Assembly: GCF_037201915.1 (NCBI RefSeq)
Contig: NZ_CP147505.1
Location: forward strand, 558,001-622,000
DNA: 64,000 nt
Direction of reading: 5' to 3'
Origin: Haloplanus sp. CK5-1
GTDB lineage: Archaea > Halobacteriota > Halobacteria > Halobacteriales > Haloferacaceae
Shown here: positions 20,598-61,432 of the stretch, one piece after another
Position numbering within the stretch: the stretch's first letter is position 1
How the letters are laid out: the number at the start of each line of letters is the position of its first letter
Notes under the pieces: model-generated
The model's input: the letters and a program-made list of their open reading frames with translations, nothing else
Databases searched by the model: none
What the model was told of the DNA's origin: nothing
Made by a program: the position numbers and the translations under genes

Positions 20598-21113
20598 ATG
20601 GTCGAATCCGAATCCACGCGACGGTCGGTCGTAACGGCGACGGGAACGGTCGCTCTCGGCGGTCTCACCGCTCTCGCCGGGTGTAGCGGTGGTGGCAGTG
20701 GGAGCGACGGCGAAAGCGGAAGCGACGGCGGAGACGGAGGCAGCGGAGACGGTTCCGGCGGCGACCCCGCCAGTTTCGACGGCTGGATGGACGGCGTCGA
20801 CAACTACGACGGCGTCGACGACGAGACGGGGAGCAGCGAGGTGAGCGTCGCCGTCGGCGCGGCGGGCAACGGTGGCAACTTCGCGTTCGATCCGCCGGCG
20901 ATCCGTGTCTCGTCGGGCACGACCGTCGTCTGGGAGTGGACCGGACAGGGTGCCCAGCACAACGTGGCCGCCGAGGACGCCGACTTCGAGAGTGACCTCA
21001 CCCAGGAGGAGGGGTTCACGTTCGAGCACACGTTCGAGGAGTCGGGCACTGACCGGTACGTCTGCACGCCTCACCGCTCGATGGGAATGAAAGGCGCCGT
21101 CGTCGTCGAGTGA
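20598..21113 (+). CDS. Halocyanin (blue copper lipoprotein)
   Basis: 171 residues. Twin-arginine signal (TRRSVVTATG) followed by a lipobox ending at Cys29 (TALAGC), then a Gly/Ser/Asp-rich linker of about 30 residues, then a cupredoxin domain. Copper ligands are the His in GAQHN and the Cys, His and Met of VCTPHRSMGM near the C terminus. It would carry electrons on the outer face of the membrane, for example to a terminal oxidase such as the ba3 enzyme encoded further along. Start 20598 gives a proper Tat signal. Confidence 0.92.
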   Translation: MVESESTRRSVVTATGTVALGGLTALAGCSGGGSGSDGESGSDGGDGGSGDGSGGDPASFDGWMDGVDNYDGVDDETGSSEVSVAVGAAGNGGNFAFDPPAIRVSSGTTVVWEWTGQGAQHNVAAEDADFESDLTQEEGFTFEHTFEESGTDRYVCTPHRSMGMKGAVVVE

Positions 21114-53924: not shown

Positions 53925-54521
53925 CTATCCGCCCTGTACCGGGATCTTCGCCAGTTCGACGAGCCGTTCGATCGTCTCGACCGAGCCATCGTCCTCCGGG
54001 TAGACGAGTGCCACCACCTCGACGGCGTCGGGCGTCGACCCGGCGGGGATCGACCACTCGCCGGTGACGGTTCGGCTCTCTTCCGGCGGCACTCGATCGG
54101 TGCTCGTCCGGCCGCTGATCGATCGCCCGTCGCGGAGGACGACGCTGAGCAACTGGAACTCGTAGTCCGTCTCCCCGCCGTTGGTCACGTCGACGGTGAG
54201 CGAGAGCGACCACCGGTCGCCCTCGGCCTCCCGCAGGGTCGCCTCGGTGAGCGTCTCGGTGCGGTCCGTCGTCGGGAGGAGGTCGTCGCCGACGCCGACC
54301 GCGTCCGACTCCGGCGTGGGCGTCCCCGTGTCGGTCGTGTCCTCGGGATTGTCGTCGCCGGCGAACTGCTGCCGGAAGAGTTCGAAAAACGTCGCCCCTT
54401 CGATGACGAGTGGGACGCCGATGGCGAACCCGACCAAGAGACGGATCAGTGTCCGCTTCGAGATGGCTCCGTCCTCGGTGTCGGTGTCGGTGGTCGGCGT
54501 GTCGTCGGTGTCGTCGGTCAC
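53925..54521 (-). CDS. Membrane-anchored protein with extracellular beta domain
   Basis: 198 residues. Acidic Thr/Asp-rich N terminus, one hydrophobic helix (LIRLLVGFAIGVPLVIEGATFF), a linker, then a beta-rich domain with WSLSLTVDVTNGGETDYEFQ, resembling the DUF4352-like fold seen outside many cells. It is the last gene of the minus-strand group that encodes the ba3 oxidase, 31 nt after cbaA, so it may assist that enzyme. No known family is claimed. Confidence 0.65.
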   Translation of the reverse strand: MTDDTDDTPTTDTDTEDGAISKRTLIRLLVGFAIGVPLVIEGATFFELFRQQFAGDDNPEDTTDTGTPTPESDAVGVGDDLLPTTDRTETLTEATLREAEGDRWSLSLTVDVTNGGETDYEFQLLSVVLRDGRSISGRTSTDRVPPEESRTVTGEWSIPAGSTPDAVEVVALVYPEDDGSVETIERLVELAKIPVQGG

Positions 54522-54552: not shown

Positions 54553-56232
54553 TCAGACCGGGATCGGTGGGCTCCCCGGAGTCAGGAGACCGTCACCGAC
54601 CAGCGCCCAGAGCGGCAGGCCGTACGCGAGGACGATCAGCAGGATGGCGACGGCGGTCCACAGTTTCAGGTTGTCGAGGATGCGGGGACTGTGCTCCGGT
54701 CCGGACAGCGGTGTGGGGATGGCGCTGTTGACTCGGATGGTGTCGGTGCCGTCGCCGCCGAACCACGTCCCGACGATGACGATCAGGAAGAGGACGAGCG
54801 CGACGAACAGCAGCGTCCCCCCGACGGCGATCTGGATACGCATCTCGCTGACGCCGCCGACGACTCCTTGGAACGTCACGCTATCGTACTGTGGTTCGGC
54901 GGTCCGGCGCGGCACGCCGGCGAGGCCGGCGCGGTGCATCGCGTTCGACATCAGGGTCATACCGACGAACCACAGGTACGGCTGGACTGTCGCGAGCGAC
55001 CGGAACCGCAGGCGGTTGCCGGTGATCTGGGGGAACAGCCAGTAGCCCGCCGCCATGAACGTGAGCGCCGACGCGGTGCCGACGGTGAGGTGGAAGTGCC
55101 CCGGCACCCACAGCGTGTTGTGGATGAGGTAGTTGATGTTCATGCCCGCGTTGATCATGCCGGAGAAGCCGCCGGCGGCGAACATGAGACCGGCGAGCGC
55201 GCAGCCGGCGAACGCGGGTTCGTCCCACGGGAGTTTCCGCAGCCAGCCGAGCCGCCCCTCACCACCGCGCTGTCGCGCGCCGTGTTCCATGCTGGCGACG
55301 ACGGTGAAGGCAGTGAGCAGGCTCGGCAACAGCAGGAACATGGTGTTCGTCATCGCGATGAACTTGAACCCCTCCGGGATGCCGGGGTCGGTGTACTGGT
55401 GGTGGAAGCCGACCGGCGTCGAGAGGAGGAGAAAGAGGACGAACACCACGCGTGCGAGCGGGTCGCTGAACAGCCGACCGCCCGAGAGTTTCGGCAGGAC
55501 GGTGTACCAGATGAAGTAGGCCGGCATGAGCCAGAAGTAGACGACCGGGTGGCCGAAGTACCAGAACAGCGTCCGCGTGAGCAGGGGGTCGACCTGTTCG
55601 ATGAGGCCGAGCGACCACGGCAGGAGGAAGAAGATGACCTCGACGGCGACGCCGGCCGAGGAGATGTACCACATCAGCATCGTCGTCAGCACCATGAACG
55701 TCTGGAGCGGGATGCGCTCGTCGGGGTTGTCGCCCCGCCACCGCCAGTAGGTGCGGAACCAGTCGAGGCCGGCGAGCCACGACCCGACGATGAACAGCGT
55801 GAGGCCCGTGTAGAAGGCCGGGTGTGCCTGCATCGGGGCGTAGAACGTGTAGAGCACGTCTGCGTTCATCGGTATCGACGGCACTACGCCGCCCAGGATG
55901 GCCGCCGCAGCCATCACGGCCCCGACGAGCATCAGCCCGAACCACGTCATCGCGAACCGTGCGCTCGGCAGGGAGCGGTCGAGGCTCCGTGTGACGCCCC
56001 AAGTGAACATTCCACAGAGCGCAAACGTCGTGAATACGAGCGCCAGGAGGACGCCGTGGCCGGTCAGCACCGTGTAGTAGTCCGCGGAACTGACGAACCC
56101 ACGGAAGACGTCCGTTCGATGGAGCGCCTGTATCATGCCGAACAGGCCGCCGACCCCGAGTGCGGCGAAGGCGACGGCCATGTTCCAGCGAACGATGCGT
56201 GCGTCGGTCGGGAAGTCGTCGACGTATGCCAT
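54553..56232 (-). CDS. cbaA: ba3-type terminal oxidase subunit I
   Basis: 559 residues, about 13 helices. Low-spin heme histidine in YYTVLTGHGVLLALVF; the CuB histidine and Tyr in FWYFGHPVVYFWLMPAY; the CuB pair in GFHHQYTDPG; heme ligands in WVPGHFHLTVG. The spacing and GHPVVYF variant fit the B-type (ba3) heme-copper oxidases of Natronomonas and Thermus. It reduces oxygen and pumps protons with electrons from halocyanin. It begins one base after the end of cbaB. Confidence 0.94.
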   Translation of the reverse strand: MAYVDDFPTDARIVRWNMAVAFAALGVGGLFGMIQALHRTDVFRGFVSSADYYTVLTGHGVLLALVFTTFALCGMFTWGVTRSLDRSLPSARFAMTWFGLMLVGAVMAAAAILGGVVPSIPMNADVLYTFYAPMQAHPAFYTGLTLFIVGSWLAGLDWFRTYWRWRGDNPDERIPLQTFMVLTTMLMWYISSAGVAVEVIFFLLPWSLGLIEQVDPLLTRTLFWYFGHPVVYFWLMPAYFIWYTVLPKLSGGRLFSDPLARVVFVLFLLLSTPVGFHHQYTDPGIPEGFKFIAMTNTMFLLLPSLLTAFTVVASMEHGARQRGGEGRLGWLRKLPWDEPAFAGCALAGLMFAAGGFSGMINAGMNINYLIHNTLWVPGHFHLTVGTASALTFMAAGYWLFPQITGNRLRFRSLATVQPYLWFVGMTLMSNAMHRAGLAGVPRRTAEPQYDSVTFQGVVGGVSEMRIQIAVGGTLLFVALVLFLIVIVGTWFGGDGTDTIRVNSAIPTPLSGPEHSPRILDNLKLWTAVAILLIVLAYGLPLWALVGDGLLTPGSPPIPV

Positions 56233-56739
56233 TTAGCTACCCTCCGTGTCGTATTCGTCCTCGGGCACGACCACGAGTTGGCCGGCCATGGTGTGGTGGG
56301 CGGCCCCACAGTACTCGTGACAGACGATGCCGTACTCCGCCGGCTCGTCGAACCTGACGGTGACCTCGGCGACCTGCCCCGGGATCACCATCACGTTGAC
56401 GTTGGTACCGGCCACCTCGAAGCCGTGTGTCACGTCGGCGCTGGTGACGTAGAACGTCACTTCGGAGTTGGCCGGCACCCGGATCGGCTCCGAGGTTCCC
56501 GGTTCGAACAGGAACTGTCGAGCGACGACGTGCACCTCGTACTCATTCTCACCGACACGCTCGACACCGGGGTCGGCGAACTCCGTCTCGTCGAGCGATC
56601 CGGCGTCGATCGTTCCGCCGGAGTCGTCGACCATCTTCACGCCCGGGCCAACCGCCCCGTACGTAACCGTCGCGATAAGCCCGACGATCAACAGTAGTGC
56701 GGCTGCGGTCCATATCTTCTCGTAGCGATGGATTTCCAT
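56233..56739 (-). CDS. cbaB: ba3-type terminal oxidase subunit II (CuA)
   Basis: 168 residues. One N-terminal helix, then a cupredoxin domain with the CuA site: His in VTHGFEVAG and the cluster VCHEYCGAAHHTMAG (Cys, Glu, Cys, His, Met). It takes electrons from halocyanin. A perfect GGAGGTGA at 56746-56753 stands six bases before its ATG. Confidence 0.95.
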   Translation of the reverse strand: MEIHRYEKIWTAAALLLIVGLIATVTYGAVGPGVKMVDDSGGTIDAGSLDETEFADPGVERVGENEYEVHVVARQFLFEPGTSEPIRVPANSEVTFYVTSADVTHGFEVAGTNVNVMVIPGQVAEVTVRFDEPAEYGIVCHEYCGAAHHTMAGQLVVVPEDEYDTEGS

Positions 56740-56755: not shown

Positions 56756-57835
56756 TTAGCCGATCACCGTCGGTCCGCCGCCGAGGAACTCGACGAAGTA
56801 CATGAACACCCACAGCAGGCTGATGATCGCGACGTAGATCACGATCAGGGTCGCCGTGCCGGTCGGATCGAACTCGTCGTGGCCGAGTTCCCGGATCACG
56901 GCCGACTCGAACACCGACTCCGACGGGGTGCGTTCGGCCGCCGTCGGCGTCGTCGCGGAGTCGCCCGTGGTCGTGAACTGGTCGTAGTTCGCGAACACCC
57001 ACGCGGTGACGCCGAGGACGGCAACCAGCGCGGCGACGACGGCACCGCCGACGAGTCGGAAGGCGAACGTGAGCGCCGGCGACGTACCGCCGCTGCCCGC
57101 GGAGTCACCTCCGCCCCCGCTGCCACTGCCGCTGCCGCTGTCGCTTCCGCCCCCGCTGCCGCCGCCACCACCGCCACCCTCGCCACCGACGACGACCGCC
57201 CCCTTCATGCCGAGGGCGAGGTGGGGCTGGCAGTAGTATTTGTACACCCCCTCGGTCTCGAAGGTGCGCTCGTGGGTGAACCCGCTGTTCTCGATCGCCT
57301 CGACGCCGCTCCAGTCTGATTCCGACGGTCCCTCCTCGATAAGCACGTTGTGGGTGTCGGAGACCCACTCGAACGTGATGGTCGTTCCGGGGTCGACCCT
57401 GACCGCGGCCGGCGCGAAGGCGTACGGTCCCCCGTTGCCATCGGCTCCGACCTCGACCGTCACCGCGTCCTGTCCGGTCCGGTCGACGGTCCCGTCGAAG
57501 TTTTGCGTTTCCCCGCCCGACTCGCTGCCGAACCAGCCGCCGTAGTCGACGCCGTTCTGTGCGGCGGCGGTGTTCGCGCTGGCGCCGACACCGACGGCGG
57601 CGGCCGCGCTCCCGACCGCCGTCCGGAGCGCCCCGCGGCGCGTCATCGTTCCGTCGTCGGGGTCGGTGTCCGATCGCGCCGGACTCGTCCCCGTCTCCCG
57701 TCGTCGCTCGGTTCGCGCGTGGTCGGATGGCGGCGGACCGTCCGTCGCTGGCACGTCCGGGTCGCTCGGTCGTCCCCCGACGTCACCCCCGCGTGACGAG
57801 TCAGCTTGCCGTTCGTTCCCGTCGACTGACGCCAT
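56756..57835 (-). CDS. Halocyanin fused to C-terminal membrane helices (CbaD-like)
   Basis: 359 residues. About 62-95 is a twin-arginine signal (TRRGALRTAVGSAAAAVGVG), then a cupredoxin domain with His in SDTHNVLIEE and Cys, His, Met in YYCQPHLALGMKGA. A Gly/Ser linker follows, then two helices: FRLVGGAVVAALVAVLGVTAW and TATLIVIYVAIISLLWVFMY. The last resembles small oxidase subunits. The start at 57835 fits a TATTATATG box 25 nt upstream, giving a 62-residue N-terminal extension; 57646 is the alternative that puts the Tat signal first. Fusion would tether the electron donor to the oxidase. Confidence 0.85.
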   Translation of the reverse strand: MASVDGNERQADSSRGGDVGGRPSDPDVPATDGPPPSDHARTERRRETGTSPARSDTDPDDGTMTRRGALRTAVGSAAAAVGVGASANTAAAQNGVDYGGWFGSESGGETQNFDGTVDRTGQDAVTVEVGADGNGGPYAFAPAAVRVDPGTTITFEWVSDTHNVLIEEGPSESDWSGVEAIENSGFTHERTFETEGVYKYYCQPHLALGMKGAVVVGGEGGGGGGGSGGGSDSGSGSGSGGGGDSAGSGGTSPALTFAFRLVGGAVVAALVAVLGVTAWVFANYDQFTTTGDSATTPTAAERTPSESVFESAVIRELGHDEFDPTGTATLIVIYVAIISLLWVFMYFVEFLGGGPTVIG

Positions 57836-57936: not shown

Positions 57937-58116
57937 ATGGTTTCGGTTCAGCACGTGCCGATCGTCGGGTTGCTCGCACTGCTCCCCGTCGCAGTGTACG
58001 CACTCTCGGTCGAGGCGATCGTGGTGGTGGCGCTCCTCAACGTCGTCCTCATCTCCGCGAGCGTGTACACGATGTTCCTCCCCAGCGAGGCGACCGTCAA
58101 GGCCACGTCCGCGTAA
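57937..58116 (+). CDS. Small two-helix membrane protein next to the ba3 operon
   Basis: 59 residues starting MVSVQHVPIVGLLALLPVAV, with two hydrophobic helices and a short polar tail. Divergent from the oxidase genes and three bases before the SafE-type gene. Its size and place suggest a small oxidase subunit or assembly factor (CbaE-like); this is inference. Confidence 0.6.
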   Translation: MVSVQHVPIVGLLALLPVAVYALSVEAIVVVALLNVVLISASVYTMFLPSEATVKATSA

Positions 58117-58119
58117 GCG

Positions 58120-58914
58120 ATGATTCCGCTTTCCGGTCCGGGTACCGGTGCAGCGGCGGCGGCAGCGAGCGATCCCGGGCTGCTGGTGTTTCTGGCCATC
58201 GGTGTGTTGGGCGGCGCGCACTGCCTCGGGATGTGTGGACCGCTCGTCACGCTGTACGCGGATCGACTGGGTTCGGAGGCCGACCGTGTCAGCCCCGTCG
58301 ACGTCCGTCAACATCTGCTGTTCAACGCCGGCCGAACCCTCAGCTACGCCGCCATCGGCGCGCTCATGGGGGCGCTCGGGGCGGTCCTCTTCGACGTCGC
58401 CGCCGTCGCCACTCTCGCGACCGACGTCCGGGGCATTACGGGCATCCTCGCCGGCGGCTTCATCGTGTTCACCGGCGCGGGCTATCTCCTCCGTGGCACC
58501 GTCGGACACGGCGTCTCGATTCCCCTCGTCGGTGACGCGTTCCCCCGGGTGTACGCCGCCGTGACGACCCGCGTCGACACGTGGGTCGGCGGCCCTCGAA
58601 TCCTCGCTCTCGGTGCGCTCCACGGATTCCTCCCCTGTCCCCTGCTCTATCCCGCCTTCCTCTACGCCTTCGCGGTCGGGTCACCGATCCGCGGGGCCGT
58701 CTCGCTCGCCGTCCTCGGCGTCGGAACCGTCCCGACGCTGCTCGCCTACGGGACCGTCTTCCAGTCGCTCGGAACGGGGAGTCGGGTGAGCCTCCACCGC
58801 GCCCTCGGCATCGCCTTCGTGGTGCTCGGGTACCTGCCGCTGGCACACGGGTTGATGCTCCTCGGGATTCACATCCCACACCCCCCGATCCCCGTCTACC
58901 AACCCCTCGGCTGA
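58120..58914 (+). CDS. SafE/DsbD_2-type membrane protein, probable copper handling
   Basis: 264 residues, about six helices. GGAHCLGMCGPLVTLY near the N terminus is the conserved HCxGMCG motif of this family, repeated in shape by ALHGFLPCPLLYPAFLYAF. In bacteria such proteins accompany cytochrome oxidase assembly and copper-transporting ATPases; here the P-type ATPase follows after 7 nt. Cu transport or insertion is likely but unproved. Confidence 0.8.
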   Translation: MIPLSGPGTGAAAAAASDPGLLVFLAIGVLGGAHCLGMCGPLVTLYADRLGSEADRVSPVDVRQHLLFNAGRTLSYAAIGALMGALGAVLFDVAAVATLATDVRGITGILAGGFIVFTGAGYLLRGTVGHGVSIPLVGDAFPRVYAAVTTRVDTWVGGPRILALGALHGFLPCPLLYPAFLYAFAVGSPIRGAVSLAVLGVGTVPTLLAYGTVFQSLGTGSRVSLHRALGIAFVVLGYLPLAHGLMLLGIHIPHPPIPVYQPLG

Positions 58915-58921
58915 CCCAACC

Positions 58922-61432
58922 ATGCCCTGTCACCTCTGTGATCTGCCGACGCCGGACCCGCCCGTCACCGACGAGGACGTCGAGGGGACGTTCTGCTGTC
59001 GTGGCTGTCTGGAGGTGACGCGGGCGCTCGACGCGGACGACGTCGACGTCGACCCGGATCGGGTGCAGGCGTCGCTGGACGCGGACACGACCGACGATAC
59101 TCCGACCGTCGACGACGTGGCCGCCGCCGAGGACGCGGACACCGCCTTCCTCGCCGTCGACGGGATGCACTGTTCGACCTGCGAGGCGTTTCTGGAGGCT
59201 CGGGCGACCGACCACGAGGGGGTCCTCGCGGCGTCGGCGTCGTACCCTTCGAACCTCATGCGGGTCGCCTACGATCCGGACCGTGTCGCCGCGACCGACC
59301 TCCCGGAGCTGATCGAGGGTGCGGGCTATCGCGCCCGCCGCGCCGAGGACGCGGCGGCTGCCGACGATCCGACCGCAGACCGGGAGGACGACACCACCGA
59401 GACGATCGGTCGCCTGATCATCGGTGGCTTCTTCGGCATGATGACGATGGCGTGGTACGCCCTCTTTCTCTACCCCGTCTACCTCGGTGTCGACCCCGAC
59501 GCACTCCTGTTCGACGTCCACGGTCCGGCCGGGCGATACCTCCTCTGGAACGTGTGGGTGATGACGAGCGTCGTCCTCGGCTACACGGGGTTCCCGATCC
59601 TTCGGGGAGCGTACGTCAGCCTGCTGGCCCGGCGACCGAACATGGACCTGTTGGTCGCACTCGCGGCCGGGACCGCGTACGTCTACAGTACGCTGACGCT
59701 CCTCCTCGGGGGGACGGAGGTGTACTTCGACATCACGACGGTCGTCGTGCTGGTGGTGACGGTCGGGGGGTACTACGAGACACGACTGAAGTCGCGGGCC
59801 GCCGGCCAGTTGACGGAACTCACGGAGAACCGGGTCGACGAGGCGACCCGGCGCACCCCGGACGGCGAGGAGACGGTCCCCCTAGACGCGGTGTCGGCGG
59901 GCGACGAGCTCGTCGTCGGGACGGGGGATCGGGTGCCGGTCGACGGTCGCGTGGTCGAGGGGACCGCGGCGGTCGACGAGTCGCTCGTCACCGGCGAGTC
60001 GATCCCCGTCCGTCGGTCGCCGGGTGACGACGTGATCGGTGGCGGCCTGCTCACCGAGGGCGGTATCGTCGTCGAGGCGGCGGCCGAGGCGACGAGCACG
60101 CTCGACCGACTGGTGGCCCACCTCTGGCGCGTCCGCAGTTCGCAGTCGGGCGTCCAGCGACTCGCCGACCGCCTCGCGGCCGTCTTCGTCCCCGTCGTCG
60201 TCCTCCTGGCCGCCGCCGCAGTCGTCGCCCACCTCGCTCTCGGAGCGACGCCGACCGCCGCCCTCCTGACCGGACTGGCCGTCCTCGTCGTCTCTTGCCC
60301 CTGCGCGCTCGGTCTGGCGACGCCTCTCGCCGTCGCCGCGGGCGTCCGGGAGGCCCTCGACGCGGGCGTCGTCATCACCGACGGCGACGTGTTCGAGCGA
60401 GCGACCGACGCCGACGTGGTCGCGTTCGACAAGACGGGGACGCTGACCACCGGCGAGATGCGCCTCCACGACGCCCGCGGCGACGAGGAAGCCATCGCCC
60501 GCGCCGCGGCCGTCGAGACGTTCGCCGACCACCCGATGGGTCGGGCCATCGTCGAGGCGGTCGACCCCCCGGACCTGCCCGTCTCGGCGTTCGAGCGCCA
60601 CCCGGGTCGAGGGGTGAGTGGGGTGGTTGGCGAGGAGCCACGGTCCTCGGGCACAGGCGAGGAGCCACGGTCCTCGGACACGGGCGACCGGGTGACCGTC
60701 GGCCGCGCCGACCTGTTCGAGGACTGTACGGTCCCCGACCGCTACCGCGAGCGGTACGAACGCGCAGTCGAGGCGGGACGCGTCGCGGCGTACGTCGGCT
60801 GGGACGGGGCGGTGCGGGGCATCCTCGTCGCCGGCGACCGACCGCGGCCGGAGTGGGAGTCGGTCGTCTCGGCCGTCGGTCGTGAGGTCGACCGGGTAGT
60901 CGTCCTCACGGGCGACGGCGAAGCGGCGGCGGCGCGGTTCCGTGACCACCCTGCGGTCGACGACGTCTTCGCCGAACTGCCGCCGGCGGCGAAGGCGACG
61001 ACCGTCGACCGACTCCGGGCCGACGGGACGACGGTGATGATCGGTGACGGGAGCAACGACGCCCCGGCGCTCGCGGCCGCCGATCTGGGCATCTCGCTGG
61101 AGAGTGGCACTCGACTCGCAGCCGACGCCGCCGACGCCGTCGTCACGACCGACGATCTGACGACCGTCCCCGAGGTGTTCGACCTGACCGCGGCGACGAA
61201 ACGACGCATCCGGCAGAACCTGGGGTGGGCGTTCGTCTACAACGCCGTCGCGATTCCGGTCGCGCTGATCGGCGCGCTCAACCCCCTCGTCGCGGCCGTC
61301 GCGATGGCCGCGAGCAGCCTGCTCGTCGTGGCGAACTCGTCTCGGGGGTTCGGGTCGAGCGAGTCCGCTCCCGACGTGTCGGGCGACGACCCCATCGAGT
61401 CCCCCGCGGTCGCCGCCGACGGCGGGGCGTGA
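58922..61432 (+). CDS. Copper-type P1B ATPase (CcoI/CopA-like)
   Basis: 836 residues. N-terminal metal-binding part with CHLC and CCRGC, then an HMA domain with DGMHCSTCEAF. Membrane motif SCPCALGLATPLA (CPC), phosphorylation site AFDKTGTLTTGE, hinge MIGDGSNDAPAL and ETFADHPMGRAI for nucleotide binding. The combination of an N-terminal Cys-rich domain and its partner SafE-type protein resembles CcoI, which supplies copper to oxidases, and the genes lie beside the ba3 oxidase. A 27-bp tandem duplication in the cytoplasmic domain (about 60631-60684) encodes EEPRSSGTG twice with one change. Confidence 0.92.
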   Translation: MPCHLCDLPTPDPPVTDEDVEGTFCCRGCLEVTRALDADDVDVDPDRVQASLDADTTDDTPTVDDVAAAEDADTAFLAVDGMHCSTCEAFLEARATDHEGVLAASASYPSNLMRVAYDPDRVAATDLPELIEGAGYRARRAEDAAAADDPTADREDDTTETIGRLIIGGFFGMMTMAWYALFLYPVYLGVDPDALLFDVHGPAGRYLLWNVWVMTSVVLGYTGFPILRGAYVSLLARRPNMDLLVALAAGTAYVYSTLTLLLGGTEVYFDITTVVVLVVTVGGYYETRLKSRAAGQLTELTENRVDEATRRTPDGEETVPLDAVSAGDELVVGTGDRVPVDGRVVEGTAAVDESLVTGESIPVRRSPGDDVIGGGLLTEGGIVVEAAAEATSTLDRLVAHLWRVRSSQSGVQRLADRLAAVFVPVVVLLAAAAVVAHLALGATPTAALLTGLAVLVVSCPCALGLATPLAVAAGVREALDAGVVITDGDVFERATDADVVAFDKTGTLTTGEMRLHDARGDEEAIARAAAVETFADHPMGRAIVEAVDPPDLPVSAFERHPGRGVSGVVGEEPRSSGTGEEPRSSDTGDRVTVGRADLFEDCTVPDRYRERYERAVEAGRVAAYVGWDGAVRGILVAGDRPRPEWESVVSAVGREVDRVVVLTGDGEAAAARFRDHPAVDDVFAELPPAAKATTVDRLRADGTTVMIGDGSNDAPALAAADLGISLESGTRLAADAADAVVTTDDLTTVPEVFDLTAATKRRIRQNLGWAFVYNAVAIPVALIGALNPLVAAVAMAASSLLVVANSSRGFGSSESAPDVSGDDPIESPAVAADGGA
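60631..60684 (+). repeat. 27-bp in-frame tandem duplication in the P-type ATPase
   Basis: Two 27-bp units encode EEPRSSGTG and EEPRSSDTG in the nucleotide-binding domain. This loop is outside the catalytic motifs, so an extra unit is likely tolerated. Confidence 0.75.

Follow-up and report, generated by a model that had tools for sequence, protein, structure and literature searches.

A halocyanin–CbaD fusion protein of Haloplanus sp. CK5-1 as a probable leashed electron donor to CuA of a ba3-type oxidase

Introduction

The electron route to the terminal oxidase in haloarchaea, in which halocyanin replaces cytochrome c, is described as only partly resolved in the excerpts consulted of PMC8305020. 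Halocyanin was earlier proposed as the oxidase donor (excerpts of PMC8305020, PMC3128077 and PMC2674319). The closest described systems are proteins in which halocyanin and CbaD (subunit IIa) form a single chain. This fusion has been published for Halobacterium salinarum (PMC2674319, PMC8305020), where HcpB/CbaD (OE_4073R) carries the halocyanin N-terminal to CbaD and is encoded directly before subunit II, and for Haloarcula (PMC3128077, PMC3403918), where the halocyanin upstream of subunit II in Haloarcula marismortui is likewise in one chain with CbaD. As far as the excerpts of these papers go, the P-x-G-T motif and the Trp are conserved between the published HcpB/CbaD fusions and the protein described here (PMC3128077, PMC8305020, PMC3403918, PMC2674319); the same excerpts make no mention of an extra helix or of the number of halocyanin domains.

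Stand-alone CbaD of Natronomonas pharaonis and Haloferax volcanii (HVO_0943), as read from other Haloferax species, shares the CbaD sequence and the place before cbaB and cbaA. It has one helix and neither signal peptide nor copper domain, and its CbaA partners fall in a separate clade. Subunit IIa of the Thermus thermophilus ba3 oxidase (1EHK/1XME chain C) and of Aquifex aeolicus shows P-x-G-[TA] and a Trp-bearing membrane helix, as here, but consists of ~34-41 residues with one helix and no fused carrier, and its sequence match to the fusion is weak. In caa3-type oxidases, a cytochrome c is fused to subunit II and the donor is covalently tethered to the oxidase. In the present protein the carrier is instead a blue copper protein, and its fusion partner is subunit IIa rather than subunit II.

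The locus lies in a window of 64,000 nucleotides (contig NZ_CP147505.1, positions 558,001 to 622,000). The gene very probably codes for a ba3-type oxidase subunit IIa (CbaD) with a covalently attached halocyanin, which would act as a leashed donor to CuA.

Gene and operon

The fusion gene and its parts are as follows.

56756..57835, minus strand: halocyanin–CbaD fusion gene as given; stop-free frame of 359 aa from ATG 57835
56756..57646, minus strand: probable coding region; 296 aa with M64 as start, beginning MTRRGALRTAVG
57557..57646, minus strand: predicted Tat-type signal peptide, MTRRGALRTAVGSAAAAVGVGASANTAAAQ, from sequence; RR motif retained in relatives
57188..57511, minus strand: halocyanin (type-1 copper) domain, residues 109-216; TIGR03102, PF00127
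57080..57187, minus strand: Gly/Ser linker, residues 217-252, from sequence and low pLDDT
56990..57079, minus strand: transmembrane helix 1, from hydropathy; helix 190-219 of the model, counted from M64
56759..56884, minus strand: CbaD (subunit IIa) part; HDEFDPxGT and transmembrane helix 2 with WVFMYFVEFLG

The chain thus runs from a Tat signal through one halocyanin domain and the linker to two hydrophobic helices, with the CbaD part at the C-terminus. The architecture is seen again in ~60 loci, every time ahead of cbaB and cbaA, and is therefore not due to chance. The GC content at third codon positions is 0.73 in codons 1-63 and 0.94 and 0.89 in the parts downstream, and congeners start a few to ~20 residues ahead of the RR motif. 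For both reasons the start is probably ATG 57646, and the start at 57835 was judged less likely.

The genes around the fusion gene are listed below.

56233..56739, minus strand: cbaB, subunit II with CuA site; COX2 match 1.2e-9, CuA motif CHEYCGAAHHTM at residue 140
54553..56232, minus strand: cbaA, subunit I; COX1 match 9.1e-91, GH, HPVVY, HH and HFH motifs
53925..54521, minus strand: gene after cbaA; N-terminal membrane helix and beta-sandwich domain, no Pfam family
57937..58116, plus strand: small hydrophobic (membrane) protein, divergent; found beside many cba operons
58120..58914, plus strand: DsbD_2-type membrane protein; PF13386 match 2e-46, conserved beside cba operons
58922..61432, plus strand: heavy-metal P-type ATPase with HMA domain, from domain match

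cbaB starts 16 bases past the stop of the fusion gene, and CbaD is directly ahead of cbaB and cbaA in every tabulated CbaD locus. By its motifs the oxidase is assigned to the ba3 type (B family), with a predicted content of haem b and a3: CbaA has the haem and CuB histidines together with HxxxY, and CbaB has the CuA motif. Since this motif is complete, a one-electron carrier is expected as the partner of CbaB. We also note that CbaB of three Natrialbaceae loci (L035, L038, L074) is ~100 residues longer at its C-terminus than elsewhere, and the extension past the CuA domain resembles another beta domain.

The product of 53925-54521 gave weak best fold matches in the PDB (arrestin, ApaG-like). 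Its homologues were present in 21/22 fused loci and in 0/39 solo loci at first count, and haloarchaeal solo operons hold at most short ORFs that match it weakly. Homologues are also found in solo operons of Balneolota, and the idea that the gene is specific to the fusion was dropped.

Copper domain and linker

The copper domain matches TIGR03102 with 1.6e-34 and 118.4 bits, against a curated cut-off of 93.8, and Copper-bind (PF00127) with 9.5e-17. The type-1 ligands are H162, C202, H205 and M210 in the numbering of the 359-aa frame, and the same H, C, H and M are invariant among 32 fused proteins (alignment A2). The domain is a halocyanin with a complete type-1 ligand set, for which copper binding and redox activity are predicted. 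An AlphaFold2 model built with the 32 aligned fusions gives the domain with high confidence, and its fold matches plastocyanins and pseudoazurins.

A tethered copper domain at the oxidase could also be a copper store or chaperone, which loads CuA (or CuB) at assembly and is not a donor. Copper supply does appear in the neighbourhood, as P-type ATPase and DsbD_2-type genes adjoin most cba operons, and the ATPase at 58922-61432 possibly supplies copper for oxidase assembly; the copper domain is, in addition, absent altogether from some lineages. The DsbD_2-type neighbour is present in 18/22 fused and 25/39 solo loci. The ATPase match, however, is found in 21/22 fused loci and is just as frequent at solo operons (39/39), and so has no link to the fusion. 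The invariance of the full ligand set in the 32 proteins also speaks against a store, as does membership of the halocyanin family, which has a redox carrier as its characterised member according to the excerpts of PMC8305020. We consider the store or chaperone very unlikely, and the domain is treated below as a donor.

The linker is disordered in the AlphaFold2 model, where residues 157-186 (from M64) have mostly pLDDT <50, and its length varies from 19 to 48 residues among relatives. The mean pairwise identity among fusions is 0.61 in the copper domain and 0.69 at the CbaD end, and falls to 0.37 in the linker, 0.30 in helix 1 and 0.26 in the loop. Conserved ends joined by a variable linker, helix and loop are the pattern expected of a tether. 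The length and high Gly content of the linker would also suit a chain that is cut after synthesis into free halocyanin and a two-helix CbaD. Surface proteases do occur in haloarchaea. Yet a single stop-free frame is kept in ~60 loci of many genera, which is unexpected if the parts separate in function, and such cleavage appears extremely unlikely beside an intact, leashed protein.

The CbaD part and the two helices

The last ~42 residues of the fusion protein are CbaD (subunit IIa), as judged from homology and gene order. This part is 49-88% identical to that of other fused forms and, where the two align, ~50-73% identical to stand-alone CbaD. The P-x-G-T motif and the Trp, the signature of subunit IIa, are invariant in the 22-row alignment A1 and appear in this protein as DPTGT and LLWVFMYF; P-x-G-T and WVFMYFVE are common to fused and solo CbaD. 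A CbaD profile run against 177,635 PDB sequences placed subunit IIa of T. thermophilus ba3 on top, with a weak match (E 0.42). The Pfam family CoxIIa (PF08113) gave 13.8 bits (E 0.053), below the cut-off of 20.7, and was set aside as proof; the assignment to CbaD therefore draws on homologues and synteny.

Solo forms of CbaD contain a single helix and lack a signal peptide; in L059, a possible exception, a further hydrophobic stretch, perhaps non-coding, comes from the frame upstream. Two C-terminal helices occur in nearly all fused proteins, with L147 falling below the hydropathy threshold at helix 1. In the model, helix 2 spans residues 261-288 counted from M64. As two helices are present in the chain and one in the CbaD part alone, the protein is classed as a CbaD-containing fusion and not as plain CbaD.

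The sequence-only reading had described a Tat signal, a blue-copper domain, a Gly/Ser linker and two membrane helices in one protein coded directly before cbaB and cbaA. All of these parts were recovered by TIGR03102, sequence and AlphaFold2, and the gene order holds by the COX2 and COX1 matches. The same reading joined a putative donor and the small subunit in one chain, which agrees with the C-terminal CbaD. The comparison of the last 60 residues with CbaD that it proposed returned ~60 loci, three of them from Balneolota and the rest haloarchaeal, which share P-x-G-T and the Trp and each have cbaB then cbaA directly after. It had further called both helices oxidase-like; this stands for the second, which is that of CbaD, but not for the first, which is unconserved.

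CbaD might serve as a mere membrane anchor for a general-purpose halocyanin that serves its own oxidase and other oxidases or enzymes alike. Two further COX1-type genes lie above the family cut-off in the genome, and the linker is long and flexible. Against this, the CbaD part is equally conserved in fusions and solo forms (alignment A1), and is therefore probably still an oxidase subunit; the fusion gene also remains in the cba operon. The bc-complex operon of the same genome (G000:C1:1163500-1172500, L160) is a further argument, as it encodes a halocyanin with a signal, a Gly linker and one C-terminal helix, which is anchored by that single helix and has no oxidase subunit. An anchor role alone is unlikely, and CbaD is taken here as a subunit of its own oxidase.

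The halocyanin of the bc operon sits between the DUF7319 and DUF7318 genes and adjoins cytochrome b. From this arrangement, a tethered copper carrier may belong to complex III itself. The genome encodes about ten other domains of copper-binding or halocyanin type, and these proteins could be the real oxidase donors. Another halocyanin domain is found inside the window (20778-21110, plus strand), and a two-domain halocyanin is encoded just upstream of the window (G000:C1:555870-556577).

Distribution and domain number

The fusion itself is published and common. By open-frame length, ~81/187 CbaD-bearing genomes of three families (roughly 40%) are fused, namely ~31/100 in the own family, 9/9 in the Halobacterium family and 41/78 in the Haloarcula family. 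The sequence-only reading fails here in two respects: the fusion was implied to be novel, and the excerpts of PMC2674319, PMC3128077, PMC3403918 and PMC8305020 already report it; the reading had also named a fusion common in the family as a refutation, and this is what the counts show.

A long open frame is an unsafe proof of fusion. Among ~34 long-frame loci inspected, all are fusions except G185:C14, whose frame of 438 aa lacks a copper domain. Frames of 221-288 aa in G031, G045, G232, G268 and G366 turned out to be solo genes. Within the genus Haloplanus, the fused form is present in 10/10 CbaD-bearing genomes; a CbaD match was not found in two Haloplanus genomes, G334 (95% complete) and G415 (79% complete).

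Most fusions contain two tandem halocyanin domains. The Haloarcula and Halobacterium-family fusions read for this comparison have two, in contrast to the one of the present protein, and within Haloplanus one domain is present in eight genomes and two in two. In a domain tree of few columns, the tandem domains of one protein mostly cluster according to lineage, a pattern suggestive of repeated duplication or conversion.

Phylogeny of CbaA and the copper-less clade

In the first CbaA tree, fused and solo forms fall on opposite sides (UFBoot 97, SH-aLRT 92). Haloferacaceae and Haloarculaceae are both divided by this split, which suggests an ancient paralogy or transfer. When more rows are included, a copper-less clade nests among the fused forms and the split of solo forms plus Balneolota has support of 62/96; a fused-only CbaA clade is not rejected (p-AU 0.22). 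A direction of evolution taken from the first tree was dropped, as the larger tree and the p-AU value fix no number of gains or losses. The Balneolota sequences come from ba3 operons of Aliifodinibius (L067, L070, L073), whose CbaD shares 56-61% identity with haloarchaeal CbaD across the conserved part; this likeness is suggestive of a transfer between bacterial and archaeal halophiles.

The copper-less clade comprises nine Haloarculaceae loci (L130, L134, L148-L154; 100/100 for CbaA), in which CbaD has both helices and no copper domain. Some of them retain a Tat-like signal and a Gly/Ser remnant, and in five of the genomes another copy lies elsewhere, with a frame as long as fusions typically have. 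The simplest reading would be halocyanin loss from a fused ancestor. No halocyanin gene was found within 19 kb of the four copper-less loci inspected for it (L156-L159), nor in the flanks (~1.5-5 kb) of 80 loci without fusion, and the neighbourhoods of solo operons consequently lend the donor role no support. Together with the copper-less clade, the lack of a flanking halocyanin in the 80 loci indicates that some lineages can do without the tethered domain.

Proposed topology and electron path

In the proposed arrangement, the folded copper domain would be exported by Tat and sit outside the membrane, and the disordered Gly/Ser tether of ~40 residues would let it swing. Helix 1 would carry the chain back to the cytoplasm as a topological adaptor. 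Helix 2, the true CbaD, would cross outward and pack by CbaA and CbaB at the position of the Thermus subunit IIa. The polarity of subunit IIa is opposite to that of helix 1 of A-type subunit II in the excerpt of PMC3128077, and we read it as N-in, C-out. Because a Tat-exported donor leaves the chain outside, one more crossing is needed ahead of CbaD, which helix 1 would provide. In every case the loop that follows helix 1 carries a net negative charge. It has 1-5 R/K in other genera and none near the membrane in Haloplanus, so that the positive-inside rule gives the topology no support there.

The leashed halocyanin would take electrons from complex III (bc complex) or from other halocyanins, and the tethered copper would hand them on to CuA of CbaB. 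On the sequence evidence, it is plausible that the domain feeds CuA of its own complex, and a kinetic benefit of the tether may be envisaged. A more speculative, rather doubtful extension is that the chain ends without an obligatory free carrier, with electrons passing from a bc-anchored copper to the oxidase-leashed copper, and that lineages adjust the leash through gain, doubling or loss of copper domains, with helix 1 retained as the adaptor.

Implications

The excerpts of the papers on the fusion make no mention of tandem domains, of copy-number variation within a genus, of the split between fused and solo CbaA, of copper-less relics or of the halocyanin of the bc operon. One clade has apparently lost the copper domain and many others have solo CbaD, which indicates that tethering is optional and not necessary. 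Otherwise similar oxidases that naturally bear zero, one or two copper domains, some of them within one genus, form a ready series, which would be useful for testing the effect of donor tethering on electron transfer.
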